Virus record (IMG/VR): IMGVR_UViG_3300034190_003745
Coordinates: 1-24,883 of that record
Direction: 5' to 3' (one strand)
DNA length: 24,883 nucleotides
From: a virus
Made by a program: the position numbers and the translations under genes. Position 1 is the first letter of the stretch, and each line of letters begins with the position of its first letter. The notes under the pieces were generated by a model. That model was not told the origin of the DNA. It saw only the letters and a list, made by a program, of their open reading frames with translations, and ran no database searches. Below are positions 8,217-20,662 of this stretch, piece by piece.

Positions 8217-8590
8217 TTTATGACCTCCAGTTTTTTTAAGATTCTACTATCCAAACTGACGTAATTTAGGTTAACTTCCGGTATGGAATTTGGAAGGTAT
8301 TTTAGATAAAAAAGAAATGTTTTCAGATAGGAATGGTGATTAGGATCTACGTTAAAAAATAACATTCTAGTGCAAAATTCAGTTCCAAATAAATTGTTTA
8401 AAACTATTATGTGATTAAGTATTAAACGTTCTCTTAGTTCCCCTGATTTCTCGTACTTACTGAACAATCTTTTTATGTATTTAATACGATTTAAATCCTC
8501 TTGAAATTCATCCATGCTTTGACATGCAGGATTTTCATAGGTTTTTATCGCCATCATAAAGAAGTTTTGTTCAGTAAGTTTTATTGTCAT
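8213..8590 (-). CDS. Conserved T4-like phage protein (DUF7207-type)
   Basis: A 125-residue, mostly helical protein with FFMMAIKTYENPACQSMDEF and DLNRIKYIKRLFSKYEKSGE, followed by LRERLILNHIIVLNNLFG. This pattern is widely shared among T4-like marine phages, where it is annotated as a small hypothetical protein next to structural genes. It is ATGA-coupled at both ends, so it is made together with its neighbours. No enzymatic motif, signal peptide or membrane segment. The N-terminal MTIKLTE is followed by Q, which would fit a prohead-protease site, but the segment is too short to argue for capsid targeting. Confidence 0.75.
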   Translation of the reverse strand: MTIKLTEQNFFMMAIKTYENPACQSMDEFQEDLNRIKYIKRLFSKYEKSGELRERLILNHIIVLNNLFGTEFCTRMLFFNVDPNHHSYLKTFLFYLKYLPNSIPEVNLNYVSLDSRILKKLEVIK

Positions 8591-9168
8591 TTTTCATATG
8601 ATGTAAATGATTCGAGAGTGTCTTTTTCTTTCTTCTCTGATTTGCCTGGATGAAGTTCTTTTGAGTCTTTCTTTTCGTCGTTTTCTACATCAAAGGATGT
8701 TGTCTCTACAATTTTTGCATCAACTTTATAGAGACCGTTTGGGACATCAATCATGTTGATATTTAATGCGTAAGACTTTCCTTCTTCAAATCCATCAGTA
8801 ACTTCGAATTCATTGTGAGGTGTTGTTGGAGATTTTCCGAAAGTTCCACCGAACTTATAAAGTCTGTATGATGTGCTTCCATCCTCTAGGTTTTCTGCCA
8901 TATCAATCTTAAAGTCAAGTCCTGCGATGTTCAACTTTGCTCTAAGCATTCCAAGAGCAGCTCTTGGATCAAGAAATTCTTTTTGTGTGAATGCGTTTAC
9001 GAATGCGTTCAATCTCTTGAGTTGCGCGGGACTTTCTGTTCTGTATATCCCGGCATCACTGTGCGCAGATCGACCGTAACTGTCGCTGGGATCTCCGTTT
9101 CCGAAGCCACCACCGAATCCGTACTCGCTCTCATTAATTTTTTGCAATAGTTCGTTGTAAGTTTTCAT
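8587..9168 (-). CDS. Probable capsid-targeted internal head protein
   Basis: A 193-residue protein whose N-terminus MKTYNELLQKINE closely resembles the T4 capsid-targeting sequence MKTYQEFIAE of internal proteins IPI-IPIII, followed by an (I/L)xE-type cleavage point (INE before SEYGFGG). The rest has a Gly-rich stretch (GFGGGFGNG), HSDAGIYRTESPAQLKRLN (36-54), a folded mid-part (PRAALGMLRAKLNIAGLDF) and a charged tail rich in Lys and Glu. The mid-part is familiar from marine phage hypothetical proteins. SD TAGGAG lies upstream of the ATG. I infer encapsidation and gp21-type processing from the N-terminus; the mature function is unknown. Confidence 0.75.
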   Translation of the reverse strand: MKTYNELLQKINESEYGFGGGFGNGDPSDSYGRSAHSDAGIYRTESPAQLKRLNAFVNAFTQKEFLDPRAALGMLRAKLNIAGLDFKIDMAENLEDGSTSYRLYKFGGTFGKSPTTPHNEFEVTDGFEEGKSYALNINMIDVPNGLYKVDAKIVETTSFDVENDEKKDSKELHPGKSEKKEKDTLESFTSYEK

Positions 9169-9187: not shown

Positions 9188-10642
9188 TTAGCCTTTCTTC
9201 CATCCGCCGCCCTTGGACTTGTACCATTTGGCAGCCCATCCATTGGCATATGCGCTTGGATAAACATCGAATTTTTGTTTTGCTAGTGATTTTGCTCTCG
9301 ACCAGAGGGAAGGATTTGTTGGAACGTTTTTCTCTTCTAATTCCTGTCCATCTGGTTCGAAGTGACTCTTGAGAGTGGCACCATTTGTCTTTGGGTTGTA
9401 CTTATACTCTGATGGTTTTCTCCCGGATCTCTTTGCAGCGCGATCCTTTGCTCTGCCTGCAGCACCCATTGACTGTCTCTTTTCACCGTGCTTGGTGAGT
9501 TCCCTGGTTCCAGGTTTAAATGATCCGGATTTTTGGAGTTGTGCTGTTGCAGTTGCATGTGCCCTGTCCTTGGACATGCCTCTGGCAAGAAGTTGGGAAA
9601 CTAGACGATCGTAAAGTTTTCCTTCTTTTATATCTTCACCCTCACCACTTTCCATGTAATCAGAGGCTGTATCAATATAATCTGCTGCCTTAGTGATTTT
9701 GGACTGAACCCATGCTTCTAATTGTCCCTCTCCCTGGACTTTTTTCATTAACTTTTCCACTGCCTTTTTAATCGTGGAAAGTTGTGATCTTGCCATAGAG
9801 TGCTCGTGATCCTTTTCGGATTTTTCTGAAATCTCTTCGCCATGATCGGGTGTGAAATTATCTTCAACCTTTGCACCGGCTCTCCATTGTCTGCACGACC
9901 AGTATCTTGCTTTTGTTTTAGGACCTGGATTATCACAATTGTGTCTTGCACGGAAGTTCGATCTTCTTTCGGGATCGTCTCTTTTAATTTCCATATTTGG
10001 ATCACCAAAGCGAACTGTTTTAACATTGCCGGTTGATGGATCCTTAACCTTAACCATAAATTTTTTGGGGCCCCCAGGAGTTCTTTGAACTTTACCGAGT
10101 GGGCCTTCTTTTTCATTTAATTGTTCTTCGTGAACATTGTAGATGTTCTCTTGGGTGGCGTATTCTAGAACTTCGTTTCCGTTATGATCTGAAAGAACGA
10201 GTAATTTTAGACCATTTGATATGTCTTCAATTTTTTCAACGGTGTATTTGTATCCGTGGTTTTTAATAATTGTCAATCCCTCTTTTATTTCGGAGAGGGG
10301 AAGTTCTACTATCTTTTTCATTACGCTTTCCTCAGTTTTTTTAATCTTGTTTGAAACCATGATGGGAGCACCACCTTTACCCGCCCGGTCGGCTACGGGA
10401 TCCTGCTCTCTTTTTCTGCGGACAGCAGCTGCTATTTTCTTTTTTCCGCCCTGTGCTCGTAATTTTGCTGCTTTTTCTCGTGAGAGACATTTTGGTTTAC
10501 CTTCACCCGGACCTCTTGCACATTTACCAATTCTCTCCCCTTTGGTGTTGTAACGATCCCAACCGCCACCACCAACGCCGCCCTTGCCGCCGGTTCCAAA
10601 CCATTTTCTTAAATCTTCTGATATGGGATCTTTTTCAGTCAT
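9188..10642 (-). CDS. Basic modular protein with DUF5872-like module and repeated (I/L)xE sites
   Basis: A 484-residue, highly basic protein built from modules that occur separately in other phages. Residues 13-100 hold a Gly-rich WFGTGGKGGVGGGGWDRY module with two Cys (41, 52) and RRKRE, of the DUF5872-like type. Residues 178-258 are basic with Cys at 236 and 250 (RARHNCDNPGPKTKARYWSC). Residues 278-332 are helical (HSMARSQLSTIKKA). Residues 341-425 form another basic helical module, and 440-484 a tail with YPSAYANGWAAKWYKSKG. Between modules stand prohead-protease-like sites: ISE (7-9), LSEIKE (116-121), LNE (175-177), ISE (271-273), IKE (338-340) and LEE (435-437). The start overlaps the upstream membrane protein gene. 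I read it as a DNA-binding internal head precursor; this is inference. Confidence 0.7.
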   Translation of the reverse strand: MTEKDPISEDLRKWFGTGGKGGVGGGGWDRYNTKGERIGKCARGPGEGKPKCLSREKAAKLRAQGGKKKIAAAVRRKREQDPVADRAGKGGAPIMVSNKIKKTEESVMKKIVELPLSEIKEGLTIIKNHGYKYTVEKIEDISNGLKLLVLSDHNGNEVLEYATQENIYNVHEEQLNEKEGPLGKVQRTPGGPKKFMVKVKDPSTGNVKTVRFGDPNMEIKRDDPERRSNFRARHNCDNPGPKTKARYWSCRQWRAGAKVEDNFTPDHGEEISEKSEKDHEHSMARSQLSTIKKAVEKLMKKVQGEGQLEAWVQSKITKAADYIDTASDYMESGEGEDIKEGKLYDRLVSQLLARGMSKDRAHATATAQLQKSGSFKPGTRELTKHGEKRQSMGAAGRAKDRAAKRSGRKPSEYKYNPKTNGATLKSHFEPDGQELEEKNVPTNPSLWSRAKSLAKQKFDVYPSAYANGWAAKWYKSKGGGWKKG

Positions 10643-10901
10643 TTTGTTCTAACGCTCTTCTTATCCAAAGTAGATCTGTTTTAATTTCTGCGAGATCTGT
10701 CATTAGTGTGGCACGAAATGCCTCGCTTGTGTCTAATCTGGAATCTAAAGTTTCTAAATTTCTTTCTATAAATTCTAATTTTGTTTCGTAAGTTGCATCT
10801 TTTTGTGCAACAAACCAAACTGTTGATCCAAAGGTGATCGCAAAGCCAAGAATCGCGCTCATAATAGAAATGGTGGCACTAGTCTTCGCCGTAGCAGTCA
10901 T
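10635..10901 (-). CDS. Small membrane-anchored coiled-coil protein
   Basis: An 88-residue protein with one N-terminal membrane segment (about 12-32, ISIMSAILGFAITFGSTVWF) followed by a heptad-like coiled coil (KLEFIERNLETLDSRLDTSE and on to the C-terminus). The topology would leave the coiled coil on one face of the inner membrane. An inner-membrane spanin (Rz-like) shape is possible, especially with a lipoprotein gene in the same operon, but it is short and far from that gene. Its ATG overlaps the upstream stop (TAATG) after SD AGGAGACG, and its end overlaps the next gene by 8 bases. Function unknown. Confidence 0.65.
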   Translation of the reverse strand: MTATAKTSATISIMSAILGFAITFGSTVWFVAQKDATYETKLEFIERNLETLDSRLDTSEAFRATLMTDLAEIKTDLLWIRRALEQND

Positions 10902-13465
10902 TATCGTCTCCTTTTAGACACAATATGTTGTTTTTTCTGACCGGGCGTACCCTCTATGTAGGTTTTTAATAATTCATCAGTTCCCTCAAACCCAGCTCCA
11001 TATTCCTCGCCGATTCGATGCTTGTTATCCGCTCTGTTTTGACTTCTATCCCTCGCCCTTAGATTAGAATCGCCATTATTAAGTGCATTTCCATCTTTAT
11101 GATCCACATCTTGGTGGGGTTTTACTTTACCACTTTTGACCATTCTTCTTCTAGCCAAAACTCTATTTGATCTCTTTTTTCTTTGCTCTGGTTTTCCATG
11201 AAACGTCTCGTATTCGTGCTTATAGTCTCGCTTTGATGGATCATCCTGTTCAAACACCAAGTTAAAAGACTCGTTAACCCCATCTTCTTCCTCCGTGTAG
11301 AAGGTGTCTTCGAAGTCGGGTTTCTCTGGTAAAACCGGTACTTTCTTCTTTTTCCCGTTGATTGTTATGATATTCATTCTGCCCTCTTCGGGTGCGTCTT
11401 CAATAATATTACCACTGACAGATATATCCAGTCCTCTTGAGATTTCCCTTAAAATCTGCTCTGGGTTCTTGCCGTAAAAGTCACCAAGAAGTTCTGGTGT
11501 GTAAATGAAAGCGGTGTCTCCGTTCATTTTGACTTTTGGTTTGTTTGCCTCTGCGAGTTCGATATTTTTCCCTTTGAGTTCGAACCTGAAAGTCGGTTGG
11601 GTTATTTTTCCCCTGCTCTTGGATCGGATTCCGACGTAAGTTTTTGGCATCACGCTTGTGATATAATCCCCATCTGACTCGCCTATTTCTTCGAACCCTG
11701 CTGGACTGAGAAGATGTGTTGCCGCTGCCTCTGGATTGTCCTCGAATGCTCTTCTCCCAGTGAGTGCTTCGTGAACCAATTCTCTCTTAAACTCTTCACT
11801 TTCTGATAAAAACTTAACAAACTCGTCCTGAATGTTCTTTGTCACAGTTCCAGAATAGTTTTGCCAATTGTACTTGTCCTTAAGGTTTCCGTTCTTATCA
11901 AACATCTCTTCAAACCAAGGTTTTCCGCCGTGTCTATCCTTTGCCTCTTCAATATGCTTTGGATCTAACATCTTGTTTGGAAGTGATCTTAGAGATTTAG
12001 CAACATTTTTTGCAGCATTCTGCATAACTTCCTGATCTTGAGCGCCGACGATCGCAGAGAGGTTCTCAAGCGTTTTGGCGGTTGTCTGTGCGCTTTCACT
12101 TGACAGTTGAATGTTACCATTCATTTTAAGAGATATTTTATTGTCCCCGCATATCAAATCTGTTTTTGGTTCCGGTCTTCCAGAAATCCCCACCTCGTCG
12201 GAGTGCTTGAGTTGTCCTTTGCACTCGTCTGGTATGTGCTTTACTGCGGTTTTGGCCATGTCAAAAACATCTTTTCTAAAAGCAGTTAGATTTTGACCTG
12301 CCATATCGTTTCTTTTTGATAATTGCTCGTCTGTTGCGCCCGCAGCCTTAGCGGCAAGATAAGTGACAGCCCACTCAAACTGGACGCCTCTACCCTGAGT
12401 GATTTCCTTCGACGGACCTGGGTATTGAATTGTGTCTATGTTCTGTGCGGGGCCTGCCGGTGTAAACGGATCCAGAGCATCATATTCTGCTTGGGCTTGG
12501 GCTTGAGCTTCTGCGTCTGCATCTTGTTGCATCTGTTCCGTATCAGAATCAGAGGGCATTTTTTCTTCCGTTTCTTTCTTTCTTTTTTCTGCCTCTTTTT
12601 CTGTGTCTCTCTGTGATTCGACATCTTTCATCATATCAGAAAGATCACCAAAAACTTCCATTGAAGTTGGAGTTTGCTTAAATTTTTGTTGTCTAATCGC
12701 ACCCTCAACGTCAGTCATCGTTGGTTTTGGTTTATCTGGACCGCCCTTAAGAACAGTGTCATCATTGGGGTCAGGTCGAACTACCACCTCTATTTCGCCG
12801 CCCTTTCTTTTTTGAATGAGATACAGATCGGGAGGTAAATATTTGGCTGCTTCGTTTAATAATTCCGGATTGTTCATAAATTCCTCAAATTCCTCGTAAT
12901 TGAACCAATCTAAAGATTCCATGTGAGATGACAGAGTGGAGTGCATTTTCTTTGCATCGGAATGGGAAACATGCTTTGGAAGCATTGTCTTGAATGATGT
13001 GAGTCCCGCCTTTGCTCTTTTTCTTGTTTCTGTCCCGGATGCTCTTTCTACGGGATCATGGGAGTCTGGATCTCTGTGACCAGCGGAAACAATAGAAACA
13101 GATTTTAGTCCGGAGTGTTTCTTCAGGGCGTCTGCTTTTTTATTCATCTCTGCGTGCCGATCTGATCCTACGATCAAAGTTGCGTGTTGATATCCACTTT
13201 TTGCAGCGTGCTCTGCCGCATGAAACATGCTTTTAACTTCTGGATGAGAAACTACGTTATGTCCTCTAAGAACTTTTTTTGCAAACCCTTGCTTCACGTC
13301 CGGCGGCAATGGATTTTTTTTGCCATCATGAGTTTGACTCAAATAGATTGCGTGATCACCCCCGACTTTTTTGGCATGAGATCTTACCGCGTCTGCTAGT
13401 TTTAGATGTCCCGCGTGTGGGGGGTTCATTCTACCGAATGCGAATACAAGGTGTTTATTTGCCAT
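10901..13465 (-). CDS. Fusion of NMNAT-like nucleotidyltransferase, PD-(D/E)XK-like domain and HNH nuclease
   Basis: An 854-residue protein. Residues 1-180 form a cytidylyl/NMN-adenylyltransferase-like domain: FGRMNPPHAGH with the HxGH motif at 17-20, LSQTHDGKKNPLP, IVGSDR (98-103) and the SAGHRDPDS and GTETRKRAK region. After a helical stretch with an LNE site (203-205, before AAKYLPP) comes an acidic, Gln/Glu-rich linker (about 280-335). The next domain has FEWAVTYLAA (Glu364) and PKTDLICGDNKISLK (Asp436, Lys447), a PD-(D/E)XK-like pattern. The C-terminus (about 745-815) is an HNH domain: RRRMVKSGKVKPHQDVDHKD then GNALNNGDSNLRARDRSQN. I use the ATG at 13465 (SD GGTGGAG) over a GTG five codons upstream. 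It is the first gene of the late operon. The nucleotidyltransferase and HNH calls are firmer than the middle one. Confidence 0.8.
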   Translation of the reverse strand: MANKHLVFAFGRMNPPHAGHLKLADAVRSHAKKVGGDHAIYLSQTHDGKKNPLPPDVKQGFAKKVLRGHNVVSHPEVKSMFHAAEHAAKSGYQHATLIVGSDRHAEMNKKADALKKHSGLKSVSIVSAGHRDPDSHDPVERASGTETRKRAKAGLTSFKTMLPKHVSHSDAKKMHSTLSSHMESLDWFNYEEFEEFMNNPELLNEAAKYLPPDLYLIQKRKGGEIEVVVRPDPNDDTVLKGGPDKPKPTMTDVEGAIRQQKFKQTPTSMEVFGDLSDMMKDVESQRDTEKEAEKRKKETEEKMPSDSDTEQMQQDADAEAQAQAQAEYDALDPFTPAGPAQNIDTIQYPGPSKEITQGRGVQFEWAVTYLAAKAAGATDEQLSKRNDMAGQNLTAFRKDVFDMAKTAVKHIPDECKGQLKHSDEVGISGRPEPKTDLICGDNKISLKMNGNIQLSSESAQTTAKTLENLSAIVGAQDQEVMQNAAKNVAKSLRSLPNKMLDPKHIEEAKDRHGGKPWFEEMFDKNGNLKDKYNWQNYSGTVTKNIQDEFVKFLSESEEFKRELVHEALTGRRAFEDNPEAAATHLLSPAGFEEIGESDGDYITSVMPKTYVGIRSKSRGKITQPTFRFELKGKNIELAEANKPKVKMNGDTAFIYTPELLGDFYGKNPEQILREISRGLDISVSGNIIEDAPEEGRMNIITINGKKKKVPVLPEKPDFEDTFYTEEEDGVNESFNLVFEQDDPSKRDYKHEYETFHGKPEQRKKRSNRVLARRRMVKSGKVKPHQDVDHKDGNALNNGDSNLRARDRSQNRADNKHRIGEEYGAGFEGTDELLKTYIEGTPGQKKQHIVSKRRR

Positions 13466-13482
13466 TATACGGTTCTCCACCG

Positions 13483-15577: not shown

Positions 15578-16720
15578 ATGAAAACATTTACAAAATTTCT
15601 GACGGAACAAACTAAAAAACCAAAAGTAGAGACAACAGGTCATCTTGCACATGCAGGAGATTTTTTGTACTATGGAAATCCAGATCACGCCATTCACCAC
15701 CACGAAAAAATGTTTGATCGTCTTCACAATAACACAGAGGATCCAGATCACCCAATATCCTTGAAGGTAGATGGTGGTATGAGTTTTCTCATGGGTAAAG
15801 ATGAATCGGGAAAGCCTTTCGTATCCTACAAATCAGCGAAACAAAAGTTTTATAGTGCAAAAGACATTCTTGCAACTGGAAAGCCTCATTATGAAAAACT
15901 TTTGATCCCTGCATTGTATGCCACTCGAAAAATGAAATCCATGCCTGCTGGGACTGCCATTCAAGCCGATCACTTGTTTGATGATCGACCCTCGAAGGAC
16001 AATTATACTTCAAATACCATACCATATTCATCCCCTGGAAAAAGTCATTCCTTCGGATTTGCCCCGCATTCCCAGTATGATGTCAGGGGGAGTGATCTCA
16101 TAAAAGTTTCAAACGAACCAGATCACTCGCATTTTCCGAAGGATCATGTTTACGCACCGAAGTTATCGTTTGGTGGTAAAAAATTCACTCCGATGAGCGA
16201 TGATAGAGTTCAAAAAATTCAACAAAGTATTGGAACGGCGAAGGCGATATTGAATGACGAAGGCCTGAAAACATTTGCATCCACTCTTCCTGATGACAAA
16301 AAATTTCATTCGGCACTACAGGGATACTCTAATCATGTTGCAAGAACTTCTGGTGTTCGATCCACTGATGATCTGATCCAACACGTTCAGAAACATGTTA
16401 ACAGAAGAAAAGTTAGTGATAGACTGAAACAAAAAGAATTAGAATCTCACACACAGAAAATAGAGGATAATCGACAGCATTTCGATGCACTCTTTTCCGC
16501 CCACAACAACCTCACAAATGCTAAACATGAAATGACGGGACATCTGAAAGATCATCACGATCTCTTTGACATTCGTCCCCACCGAGATGAGGAGCATGAG
16601 GGTATTGTTGCTACGTCAAACTCAACAGGCACAACAGCCAAGTTTGTCCCAGAGGGTCCAGATGGTTTTGCCGCAAAGAACGCAGCAAGATCAGCAGAAC
16701 TTAGATCAAAAGGTAGGTAA
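15578..16720 (+). CDS. DUF6267-like protein with KxDG ligase-type motif and capsid-targeting N-terminus
   Basis: A 380-residue protein. It starts MKTFTKFLTE, a near copy of the T4 capsid-targeting sequence with an LxE cleavage point before QTKKPK. GHLAHAGDFLYYG and the helix after it resemble DUF6267 proteins of marine phages. SLKVDGGMSF places Lys63 in a KxDG motif like motif I of nucleotidyltransferase-fold DNA and RNA ligases, followed by GKPFVSYKSAKQKF and, near 128-150, TAIQADHLFDD and SNTIPYSSP, all in the order seen in DUF6267. The second half is His- and Lys-rich and helical. The ATG at 15578 is preceded by a weak GGGG SD. Adenylation activity is a hypothesis; the family call is from memory of its motif pattern. 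Confidence 0.7.
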   Translation: MKTFTKFLTEQTKKPKVETTGHLAHAGDFLYYGNPDHAIHHHEKMFDRLHNNTEDPDHPISLKVDGGMSFLMGKDESGKPFVSYKSAKQKFYSAKDILATGKPHYEKLLIPALYATRKMKSMPAGTAIQADHLFDDRPSKDNYTSNTIPYSSPGKSHSFGFAPHSQYDVRGSDLIKVSNEPDHSHFPKDHVYAPKLSFGGKKFTPMSDDRVQKIQQSIGTAKAILNDEGLKTFASTLPDDKKFHSALQGYSNHVARTSGVRSTDDLIQHVQKHVNRRKVSDRLKQKELESHTQKIEDNRQHFDALFSAHNNLTNAKHEMTGHLKDHHDLFDIRPHRDEEHEGIVATSNSTGTTAKFVPEGPDGFAAKNAARSAELRSKGR

Positions 16721-18935: not shown

Positions 18936-19196
18936 TTAGTTTTCATCTCTTTTGCGATCTTCTTCTTCTTTTCTCTTGGCGCCAAATTTGAGGGTTGCGC
19001 CTCCCTCTTCTCTTGACTTTTCGCAAATAGCAGCAGCTTCTTTTTCGCTCATTTCTTTACCATCTCGTTTGGCTTCTGCTTTTACTTTTGAAATGCAATC
19101 ATGAAAAGTGTCGTCTGCTTGTCCTGGCTCTTCTTTGGAACTGAAGTGCTTCGGTGCTTCTTCTAATTTGTTTAGAAACTTTTTAAATGTGTCCAT
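18936..19196 (-). CDS. Small charged protein with CTS-like N-terminus, internal head protein candidate
   Basis: An 86-residue, highly charged protein. MDTFKKFLNKLEE then APKHF resembles the T4 capsid-targeting peptide (MKTYQEFIAE then A), with a cleavage point at LEE before Ala. The rest (DDTFHDCISKVKAEAKRDGK, KEAAAICEKSREEGG) has two Cys and a helical pattern seen in small phage proteins with a D/H-x-C-V-x-K-V motif. The C-terminus is a Lys/Arg/Glu/Asp run. SD TGAGGAAAA precedes the ATG. It lies in a six-gene minus-strand unit with structural-type proteins. Encapsidation is inferred from the N-terminus. Confidence 0.7.
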   Translation of the reverse strand: MDTFKKFLNKLEEAPKHFSSKEEPGQADDTFHDCISKVKAEAKRDGKEMSEKEAAAICEKSREEGGATLKFGAKRKEEEDRKRDEN

Positions 19197-19975: not shown

Positions 19976-20662
19976 ATGAACAAATACGCTTTTAACGTTT
20001 TCTTAGAGAAACAAAAACTTGATGAGGCTCCCAGGGAGCGCATGACTGGTGCATCGGAAAATCCACAAGGACTTACCAGATCTCGAATGAGAAGAATTGA
20101 ATTGGCAAAGAAGCAAGCACCTGAGATCGAAGCAAAAATTAAAAGATTGAAGGGTCAGGCTGCTGGTGATCCCGCAAAGATGGCTGCTCTTCAAAAGAAA
20201 ATAGACGTGACACGAAAGCAAATATCAAATCCTGCAAATCTAAAAAGTCCTCAAGGGGAACTTAGACGACAGAGACTTGCAAAAGCAGAAAAGTTAAAAG
20301 CAAGAGGCGGGAAAGGAAGCGTTATTGATAAAGCAATGGCTGCAATTAGCAAGCGAGTGAGAGCAGTTGACACGCCACAAAATAGAGAAAGACTAAAGAG
20401 ACTCGGCCGAGCCGGTCTTGAGTACGCTAAAACTGGGGCTTTCTCTGGACAATTTGGAAGAGAAATGAAAGCAAGAGGTGTCGGATCCGGTGTTCAATAC
20501 AAGAGTGCGCTAGGAGCGTTGAAGGGTGGAGCATCCACTCAGATAATCGGGACTGGAGCAGAGACCGGTTCGAAAACCAGATCATCTGATCCACTAGCAG
20601 GACTTGATCCGGTAGAGAAAAGAAGAGCAAGAATGGCCGGCGCTGCTGGTCCGGTTGGATGA
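19976..20662 (+). CDS. Basic protein with CTS-like N-terminus, internal DNA-binding head protein candidate
   Basis: A 228-residue protein very rich in Lys, Arg, Ala and Gln. MNKYAFNVFLEKQKLDE then APRERMTG looks like a capsid-targeting peptide with an LDE cleavage point before Ala. The body is mainly basic helix (LTRSRMRRIELAKKQAPEIE, AALQKKIDVTRKQI, GELRRQRLAKAEKLKARGG), then Gly-rich segments (GGKGSV, GVGSGVQYK). No catalytic motif. The start has SD GGCGGAG; the in-frame ORF extends upstream but through the divergent promoter region. The composition matches T4 internal proteins that are packed with and injected with DNA. Inference. Confidence 0.75.
   Translation: MNKYAFNVFLEKQKLDEAPRERMTGASENPQGLTRSRMRRIELAKKQAPEIEAKIKRLKGQAAGDPAKMAALQKKIDVTRKQISNPANLKSPQGELRRQRLAKAEKLKARGGKGSVIDKAMAAISKRVRAVDTPQNRERLKRLGRAGLEYAKTGAFSGQFGREMKARGVGSGVQYKSALGALKGGASTQIIGTGAETGSKTRSSDPLAGLDPVEKRRARMAGAAGPVG

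Follow-up and report, generated by a model that had tools for sequence, protein, structure and literature searches.

A putative head-targeted polyprotein with cleavage-type triplets at its module borders, encoded on a viral contig

Capsid-targeting sequences, processing by gp21 and the packaging of multidomain polyvalent proteins are already known (PMC9026906, PMC5512222). The T4 internal proteins IpII and IpIII both start with MKTYQEFIAE^A (here and below a caret is placed behind the leader, triplet or start residue), and their first ten residues are annotated as removed. IPIII is targeted by its first 10 residues, cleavage by gp21 follows L/I-x-E, and within the T4 leader residues 4 and 7 matter in targeting and residues 8 and 10 in cutting; an Asp at position 10 prevents processing in T4 (PMC9026906). 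Polyvalent proteins are thought to be packaged and delivered, and their authors liken them to viral polyproteins (PMC5512222). In the open-access literature we found no report of a targeting or cleavage signal serving as the repeated joint of a cargo polyprotein. Likewise, no T4-type leader (CTS) in cyanophage-like genomes is reported in the open-access literature searched, though such reports could exist elsewhere.

The window analyzed here (the whole stretch of 24,883 nt) encodes a 484-residue protein (Table 1), an identical copy of which is present on a second contig, L002. The polypeptide consists of six modules, M1 to M6, and neither a peptidase nor any other known enzymatic domain turned up in Pfam and NCBIfam scans of it. 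The initial annotation had described a modular protein with a series of (I/L)xE triplets; the reading frame and the listed triplets are indeed present, and an additional one, IVE111, had been missed. The eight triplets are ISE7, IVE111, LSE116, IKE119, LNE175, ISE271, IKE338 and LEE435. In 10,000 composition shuffles 3.8 +/- 1.8 triplets were expected against the 8 seen, and eight or more were reached in 2.8% of shuffles (P = 0.03). The number of triplets is therefore weak evidence, and it is their position, rather than their count, that carries the argument, as the annotation had itself held in calling (I/L)xE common by chance. Six of the eight lie at module borders (ISE7, IVE111, LNE175, ISE271, IKE338 and LEE435), while LSE116 and IKE119 belong to the first strand of M2, a folded module. 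Thus, the claim that the listed triplets lie near borders stood for ISE7, LNE175, ISE271, IKE338 and LEE435 and failed for the two inside M2. Two of the modules named at that time, DUF5872-like and YPSAYANGW-like, are one, M6, since Pfam DUF5872 matches the C-terminal M6, and the Cys-containing basic module resembles DUF5754. Nor would all products be basic, as had been supposed; among the six predicted fragments M2 (pI 4.8) and M4 (pI 5.4) are acidic and the other four are basic.

Table 1. Features of the window, with position, strand and the basis on which each was assigned
Feature	Coordinates	Strand	Basis
Whole gene of the 484-aa modular precursor, stop included	9188..10642	-	ORF call
N-terminal leader, residues 1-9, ending ISE7-9 before DLRKWF	10616..10642	-	disordered in model
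M1, residues 10-100, WF..GWDRYNTKGE..., basic	10343..10615	-	profile, 226 domain matches
IVE111-113, M1/M2 border site	10304..10312	-	degenerate copy of internal CTS
M2, residues 114-177, EF-P/eIF5A-like barrel, acidic, ends LNE175-177	10112..10303	-	model, fold match
LSE116-IKE121, triplets in first M2 strand, non-border	10280..10297	-	model, fold match
LNE175-177, M2/M3 border site	10112..10120	-	relatives L003, L004
M3, residues 178-258, DUF5754-like, basic, two Cys	9869..10111	-	PF19058, phrog_7595, pLDDT 88
ISE271-273, M3/M4 border site, disordered linker	9824..9832	-	model
M4, residues 274-337, helical (DHEHSMARSQL...)	9632..9823	-	phrog_32745; 141 domain matches
IKE338-340, M4/M5 border site	9623..9631	-	contexts of relatives
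M5, residues 341-432, basic helical	9347..9622	-	12 relatives found
LEE435-437, M5/M6 border site, disordered linker	9332..9340	-	joint contexts
M6, residues 438-484, DUF5872-like (YPSAYANGW), basic	9191..9331	-	PF19197, phrog_27331
859-aa cytidylyltransferase/HNH multi-domain protein, upstream	10901..13480	-	phrog_3041, phrog_22045, HNH_3
Neighbor with exact T4-type CTS, MKTFTKFLTE^QTKK	15578..16720	+	CTS pattern

An AlphaFold2 model of the protein, built from 50 aligned sequences, has confident domains with disordered stretches between them and no fixed arrangement (pLDDT 79, pTM 0.33). Six stretches are of low confidence (residues 1-9, 16-25, 89-107, 258-273, 332-337 and 429-437), and four of the eight triplets lie within such a stretch or at most 3 residues from one: ISE7, ISE271 and LEE435 are within disordered stretches and IKE338 adjoins one. 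LNE175 is the end of the last helix of M2. The model of M2 resembles the N-terminal domain of EF-P/eIF5A, a common small barrel, with a Z score of 9.2 and an rmsd of 1.6 over 61 residues at 13% identity; this match begins at residues 110-114, and M2 would therefore be nearly whole after a cut behind IVE111-113. Only the M2 rows stand out in the fold search with the whole model, in which the other modules were barely sampled. A fold search with M3 returned nothing better than E 0.6, the top rank being a non-significant match to Cren7, a DNA-binding chromatin protein, and the top matches in a viral fold library were uncultured phage proteins without useful names. Against Pfam DUF5754 (PF19058) M3 scores 24.1 bits over 47 of 49 positions (cut-off 27.4, E 3.8e-5). 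M6 scores 16.6 bits against DUF5872 (PF19197; cut-off 27.5, E 0.012, positions 1-38 of 116), and the M6 of relative L003 is likewise under the cut-off (E 0.0017). By its profile similarity M6 is thus best described as a relative of DUF5872 that is not filed as a member.

A search of viral contigs yielded 590 or more relatives; the 80 best of these were retained, and scans with single modules raised the set to 333 sequences. These relatives shuffle, swap and split the modules of the 484-residue protein. The architectures include M1-M3-M6 (45 distinct proteins), M1-M4, M1-M6, M1-M4-M6, M1-M6-M3, M3-M1-M6, M6-M4-M3 and single modules, and in L040 and L072 modules are fused to a cytidylyltransferase. 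The closest relative, L003, has a DUF6321 module in place of M3-M4, exactly between LNE and ISE, and in L004 M5 lies directly behind M2 at LNE. The border sites, whose loss in homologues the initial annotation had taken to speak against the proposal, are kept where a module is swapped, relocated or encoded as a separate gene. Residues 339-441 of an S-SM2 protein of this modular kind (L334 2701-4827) form a DUF192 domain (PF02643, E 3.6e-24), and in two further proteins (L030 4941-6818 and L033 4941-6818) an intein-like insertion with a weak Pfam match to Intein_splicing interrupts the M6 motif YPSAYAN (VYPC...TGN/SAYANAW). Functionally important sites are the usual locations of inteins, and the insertion thus hints that the YPSAYAN motif of M6 matters.

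In order to examine the joints across relatives, a profile was made for each module and the residues preceding the module start were compared, using contexts less than 60% identical to one another. Of the 46 non-redundant internal contexts of M6, 34 have an [IL].E that ends exactly at the border, where 2000 shuffles of the same 15 residues gave 2.1 +/- 1.4 with a maximum of 8. The triplet itself is variable at this joint (LEE, LNE, IEE, LVE, LLE, IME, LTE, FEE and others). The M5 start GKLYDRL is preceded by [IL].E in all three independent contexts (IKE, ISE and LNE), against 0.1 in shuffles. A hand count of the DUF6321 joints found [ILVM]xE in 24 of 27 contexts, and [ILVMF]xE precedes the IDKSKMKC form of M3 in 4 of 4. 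The M1 joint has a triplet in 7 of 12 contexts when V, M and F count alongside I and L, and in 1 of 12 when strictly I/L; the M4 joints, mostly M/VxE, are less clear. Both were rejected as strict I/L sites, being mainly V/F/MxE. Taken over relatives in which the modules have different neighbors, the triplet coincides with the module borders. Conservation of triplets within a single family was set aside as non-discriminating evidence: in the M1-M3-M6 family conserved triplets occur inside M2 as well, and some joints show conservation of the motif read backwards.

The same residue marks the end of a leader when modules stand alone. We scored the N-termini in the fetched loci for the CTS pattern M..[FY]..[FYLIM][ILV].E and found 74 distinct N-termini that fit. 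Shifting the pattern by one residue gave 15 and 14, and controls ending in D, K, N or Q instead of Glu gave 2-9. Stand-alone leaders were found for M3 (MKTYREFVTE^AEYQG and MKTFAQFLEE^KQLGK), M6 (MVTFKQYITE^ENKPTNP), M1 (MKSFIQYLKE^DLRKWF) and DUF6321 (MKSFKQFLEE^SAAW and MLSFKDFITE^AAPAW). All of these end at the residue where the internal joints bear the triplet, which answers favorably the comparison with separate genes that the annotation had recommended. Whole copies of the leader also occur inside some fused proteins, at module starts. They read QKTFNKFVTE^ASAAW (L252), LKTFEQFVLE^AKTAAW (L286), LKSFDNFMIE^ASSAW (L285) and GKTFFQFMIE^ASAAW (L306). L261 has an internal copy, QKTFSQFMVE^AIDKSKMKCNKP, and the sequence beyond it matches M^AIDKSRMKCNKP, which is M3 as a gene of its own in Roseobacter phage CRP-738; a search of that phage found no S77 protease. 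Of the 45 proteins of M1-M3-M6 type, 43 have the core [STCA][FY]..F[ILV].E at the M1/M2 joint, with variable residues in the intervening positions, and 13 such cores were counted in 488,715 residues of other long ORFs. In L043 the M1/M2 joint reads ESFDLFLVE. The 484-residue protein reads EESVMKKIVE at this border, a degenerate CTS. A complete N-terminal CTS is absent from it, MTEKDPISED having no fit to the 10-residue leader pattern with an aromatic residue at 4 and 7, I/L/V at 8 and Glu at 10; in relatives the place of its ISE7-9 leader is taken by LKE, LNE, ILE, LEE or a full CTS.

The occurrence of the sites was compared with that of the S77 prohead protease (PF03420). Every complete Kyanoviridae genome that was checked has this protease, as does Flavobacterium phage immuto, and it was not found in any of the small marine phages with M3 or M6. 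In the complete S77+ phages checked, [ILVMF]xE precedes M3 or M6 in 7 of 7, strictly I/L in five (LEE^AEFQG, LTE^AEYQG, LDE^GEYRG, MME^SEYQG, VSE^ENKP, IEE^KNVP and LEE^NNDP), whereas M3 or M6 lacks a site in 12 of 13 complete S77- phages, the exception being CRP-6. This contrast has a Fisher P of 1e-4 (0.007 for strict I/L), as scored by hand on phages that are not independent. Many S77- copies start at the Met of the module, leaving no room for a site; this is predicted by the polyprotein hypothesis, yet it is equally typical of a bare single-domain gene. The major capsid protein has [ILV]xE at its probable propeptide end in 12 of 12 S77+ phages compared, and the likely specificity of S77 therefore agrees with the joints. 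In Roseobacter phage CRP-6 (L336 3037-3726) one protein combines M3 with a putative XkdF head protease (PF14550), which is a direct link of M3 to head assembly; S77 was not found in that phage. Two markers were rejected. A strict 10-residue CTS does not mark every S77+ genome, as HTVC008M and Sf-CH8 have 0 strict starts and G008 and G003 have 2-3, and PF07068 (Gp23), considered as a contig marker, occurred in just 7 of the 48 records, most of which are fragments.

The contig itself encodes a DnaB-like helicase, a T4-type primase, a cobS-like ATPase and phrog_407, and no S77 protease gene is present on it. As judged from sequence, the host genome of the 484-residue protein is that of a T4-like phage of Kyanoviridae type. 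The 859-residue neighbor matches S-CREM2 gp154, and a counterpart of S-CREM2 gp159 has 42% identity; since these two counterparts adjoin the 484-residue gene, the neighborhood is related to that of S-CREM2. The direct match of the 484-residue protein to S-CREM2 gp160 is weak, and profiles find M1 and M6 in gp160. Mass spectrometry of S-CREM2 virions detected gp160, gp137, gp154, gp136 and the prohead protease (PMC10665884, Table 3). The C-terminal end of gp137 is DUF6321, the cytidylyltransferase gp154 starts with MKNFSSFLTE^ADEK, and gp136 starts with MQTFSMFFSE^DAGD. The 859-residue neighbor is thus likely to be another virion protein. It is modular as well, comprising a cytidylyltransferase, a phrog_22045 domain and an HNH domain, and LLNE^AA lies close to where its first domain ends. 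Full or near T4-type leaders were noted for four genes of the window: 15578-16720 (+), MKTFTKFLTE^QTKK; 8587-9168 (-), MKTYNELLQKINE^SEYG; 18936-19196 (-), MDTFKKFLNKLEE^APK; and 19979-20662 (+), MNKYAFNVFLEKQKLDE^AP. A full complement of head cargo genes may be encoded on the 24,883-nt contig. In the small podophages HTVC041P (L337), MedDCM-OCT-S30-C28 (L353) and P-SCSP2 (L400) the single M3 or M6 gene is flanked by the genes for the scaffold and the major capsid protein.

We consider it probable that the 484-residue protein is a head-targeted polyprotein that arose from fused capsid-targeted genes and is cut by the prohead protease. It and its relatives would descend from fusions of small genes, each bearing an N-terminal T4-type CTS. 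Some fusion joints would have retained the complete CTS and others just its cleavage triplet, mostly [IL]xE. The precursor would enter the prohead core, and at head maturation S77, the gp21-like protease, would cut behind the Glu of each joint and free about six folded modules of 5-11 kDa, four basic and two acidic. The masses calculated for cuts at the six borders are 11.1, 7.4, 11.0, 7.5, 10.7 and 5.3 kDa, in addition to a leader of 9 residues. The freed modules would remain with the DNA and probably be ejected into the host, and the joints would have been retained because the head protease uses them. For the protein at hand we infer its packaging, its cutting at the joints and the ejection of the products, as well as the presence of an S77 protease in the phage that encodes it.

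The triplets could instead be relics of fused CTS-led genes, in which case the packaged protein would be cut once or never and act as a multidomain whole. Some M4 and M1 joints resemble old start regions (MSEAKEKDHE and MNEEKKQPDHE) and not I/L sites, and the 484-residue protein has not kept a full CTS. Relics should decay, however, and P3 and P1 persist amid varying neighbors in the M6 contexts counted above. The F/Y, F, [LI] and E positions are likewise kept in nearly all internal copies at the M1/M2 joint, and a protease of matching likely specificity occurs in the same phages. We regard this explanation as unlikely but not negligible. A second alternative is that the protein is not head cargo at all and functions within the infected cell, in a role such as nucleic acid binding, with the leaders serving folding or some other targeting. 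The modules are small and mostly basic, and the resemblance of M2 to the EF-P/eIF5A N-terminal domain is compatible with a cellular role. However, S-CREM2 virions contain gp160, a homologue that has both M1 and M6, together with two CTS-led neighbors, and the podophage module genes sit among head genes, which makes a purely cellular role highly improbable. That acidic linkers yield LxE by accident, so that the overlap with borders would be trivial, is next to negligible: the triplet count is merely twofold over expectation and 17 of the 42 Glu of the protein lie near low-confidence stretches, but shuffling the same linkers gave 2.1 against the 34 observed, and four fifths of the CTS register matches disappear on a one-residue move or with a D/K/N/Q end.

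Returning to the head-targeted polyprotein, we hold the broader proposition to be evenly balanced, namely that T4-like aquatic phages reuse the CTS or cleavage signal as a repeated joint, so that one reading frame loads equimolar cargo that the head protease sets free. If this repeated-joint reading is true, modules could be swapped at the joints unharmed, which would explain the extreme shuffling and thus the scrambled architectures of these cargo proteins. It would also mean that several anonymous families common in aquatic phages (the DUF5754 and DUF5872 relatives, DUF6321 and the unnamed modules) are head cargo, and that a simple sequence rule can find more internal, probably ejected proteins in T4-like phages, whose genes of this sort are almost all labeled "hypothetical". 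Phages would then have a second route for processing multi-part cargo, in addition to the embedded peptidase of polyvalent proteins.

Four described systems bear comparison with these proteins. As in T4 IPI, IPII, IPIII and Alt (PMC9026906), the stand-alone modules share the register of MKTYQEFIAE and end in [ILV]xE, the same protease family occurs in the phages, and relatives are found in virions; unlike the T4 internal proteins, which are single units with one N-terminal leader, the units here form a fused chain in which the signal or its triplet recurs at the joints. The T4 core proteins gp22, gp67 and gp68 (PMC9026906) likewise receive several gp21-type cuts per chain, but their fragments are mostly those of a degraded core leaving the head, whereas the fragments predicted here are conserved folded modules. 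The cyanophage T4-GC 119 proteins of S-SM2 and S-BM3, encoded between gp16 and gp17 (PMC3037559), contain M1, M4, M6 and DUF6321 in other orders; they are annotated as hypothetical, with no processing proposed in the available parts of that paper. Polyvalent proteins (PMC5512222) also have multiple domains per polypeptide and strong shuffling, and no domain of the 484-residue protein was identified as belonging to their domain set, MPTase included. Their processing, if any, is by an embedded metallopeptidase, whereas for the protein described here we propose that the head protease acts in trans at CTS-like joints.
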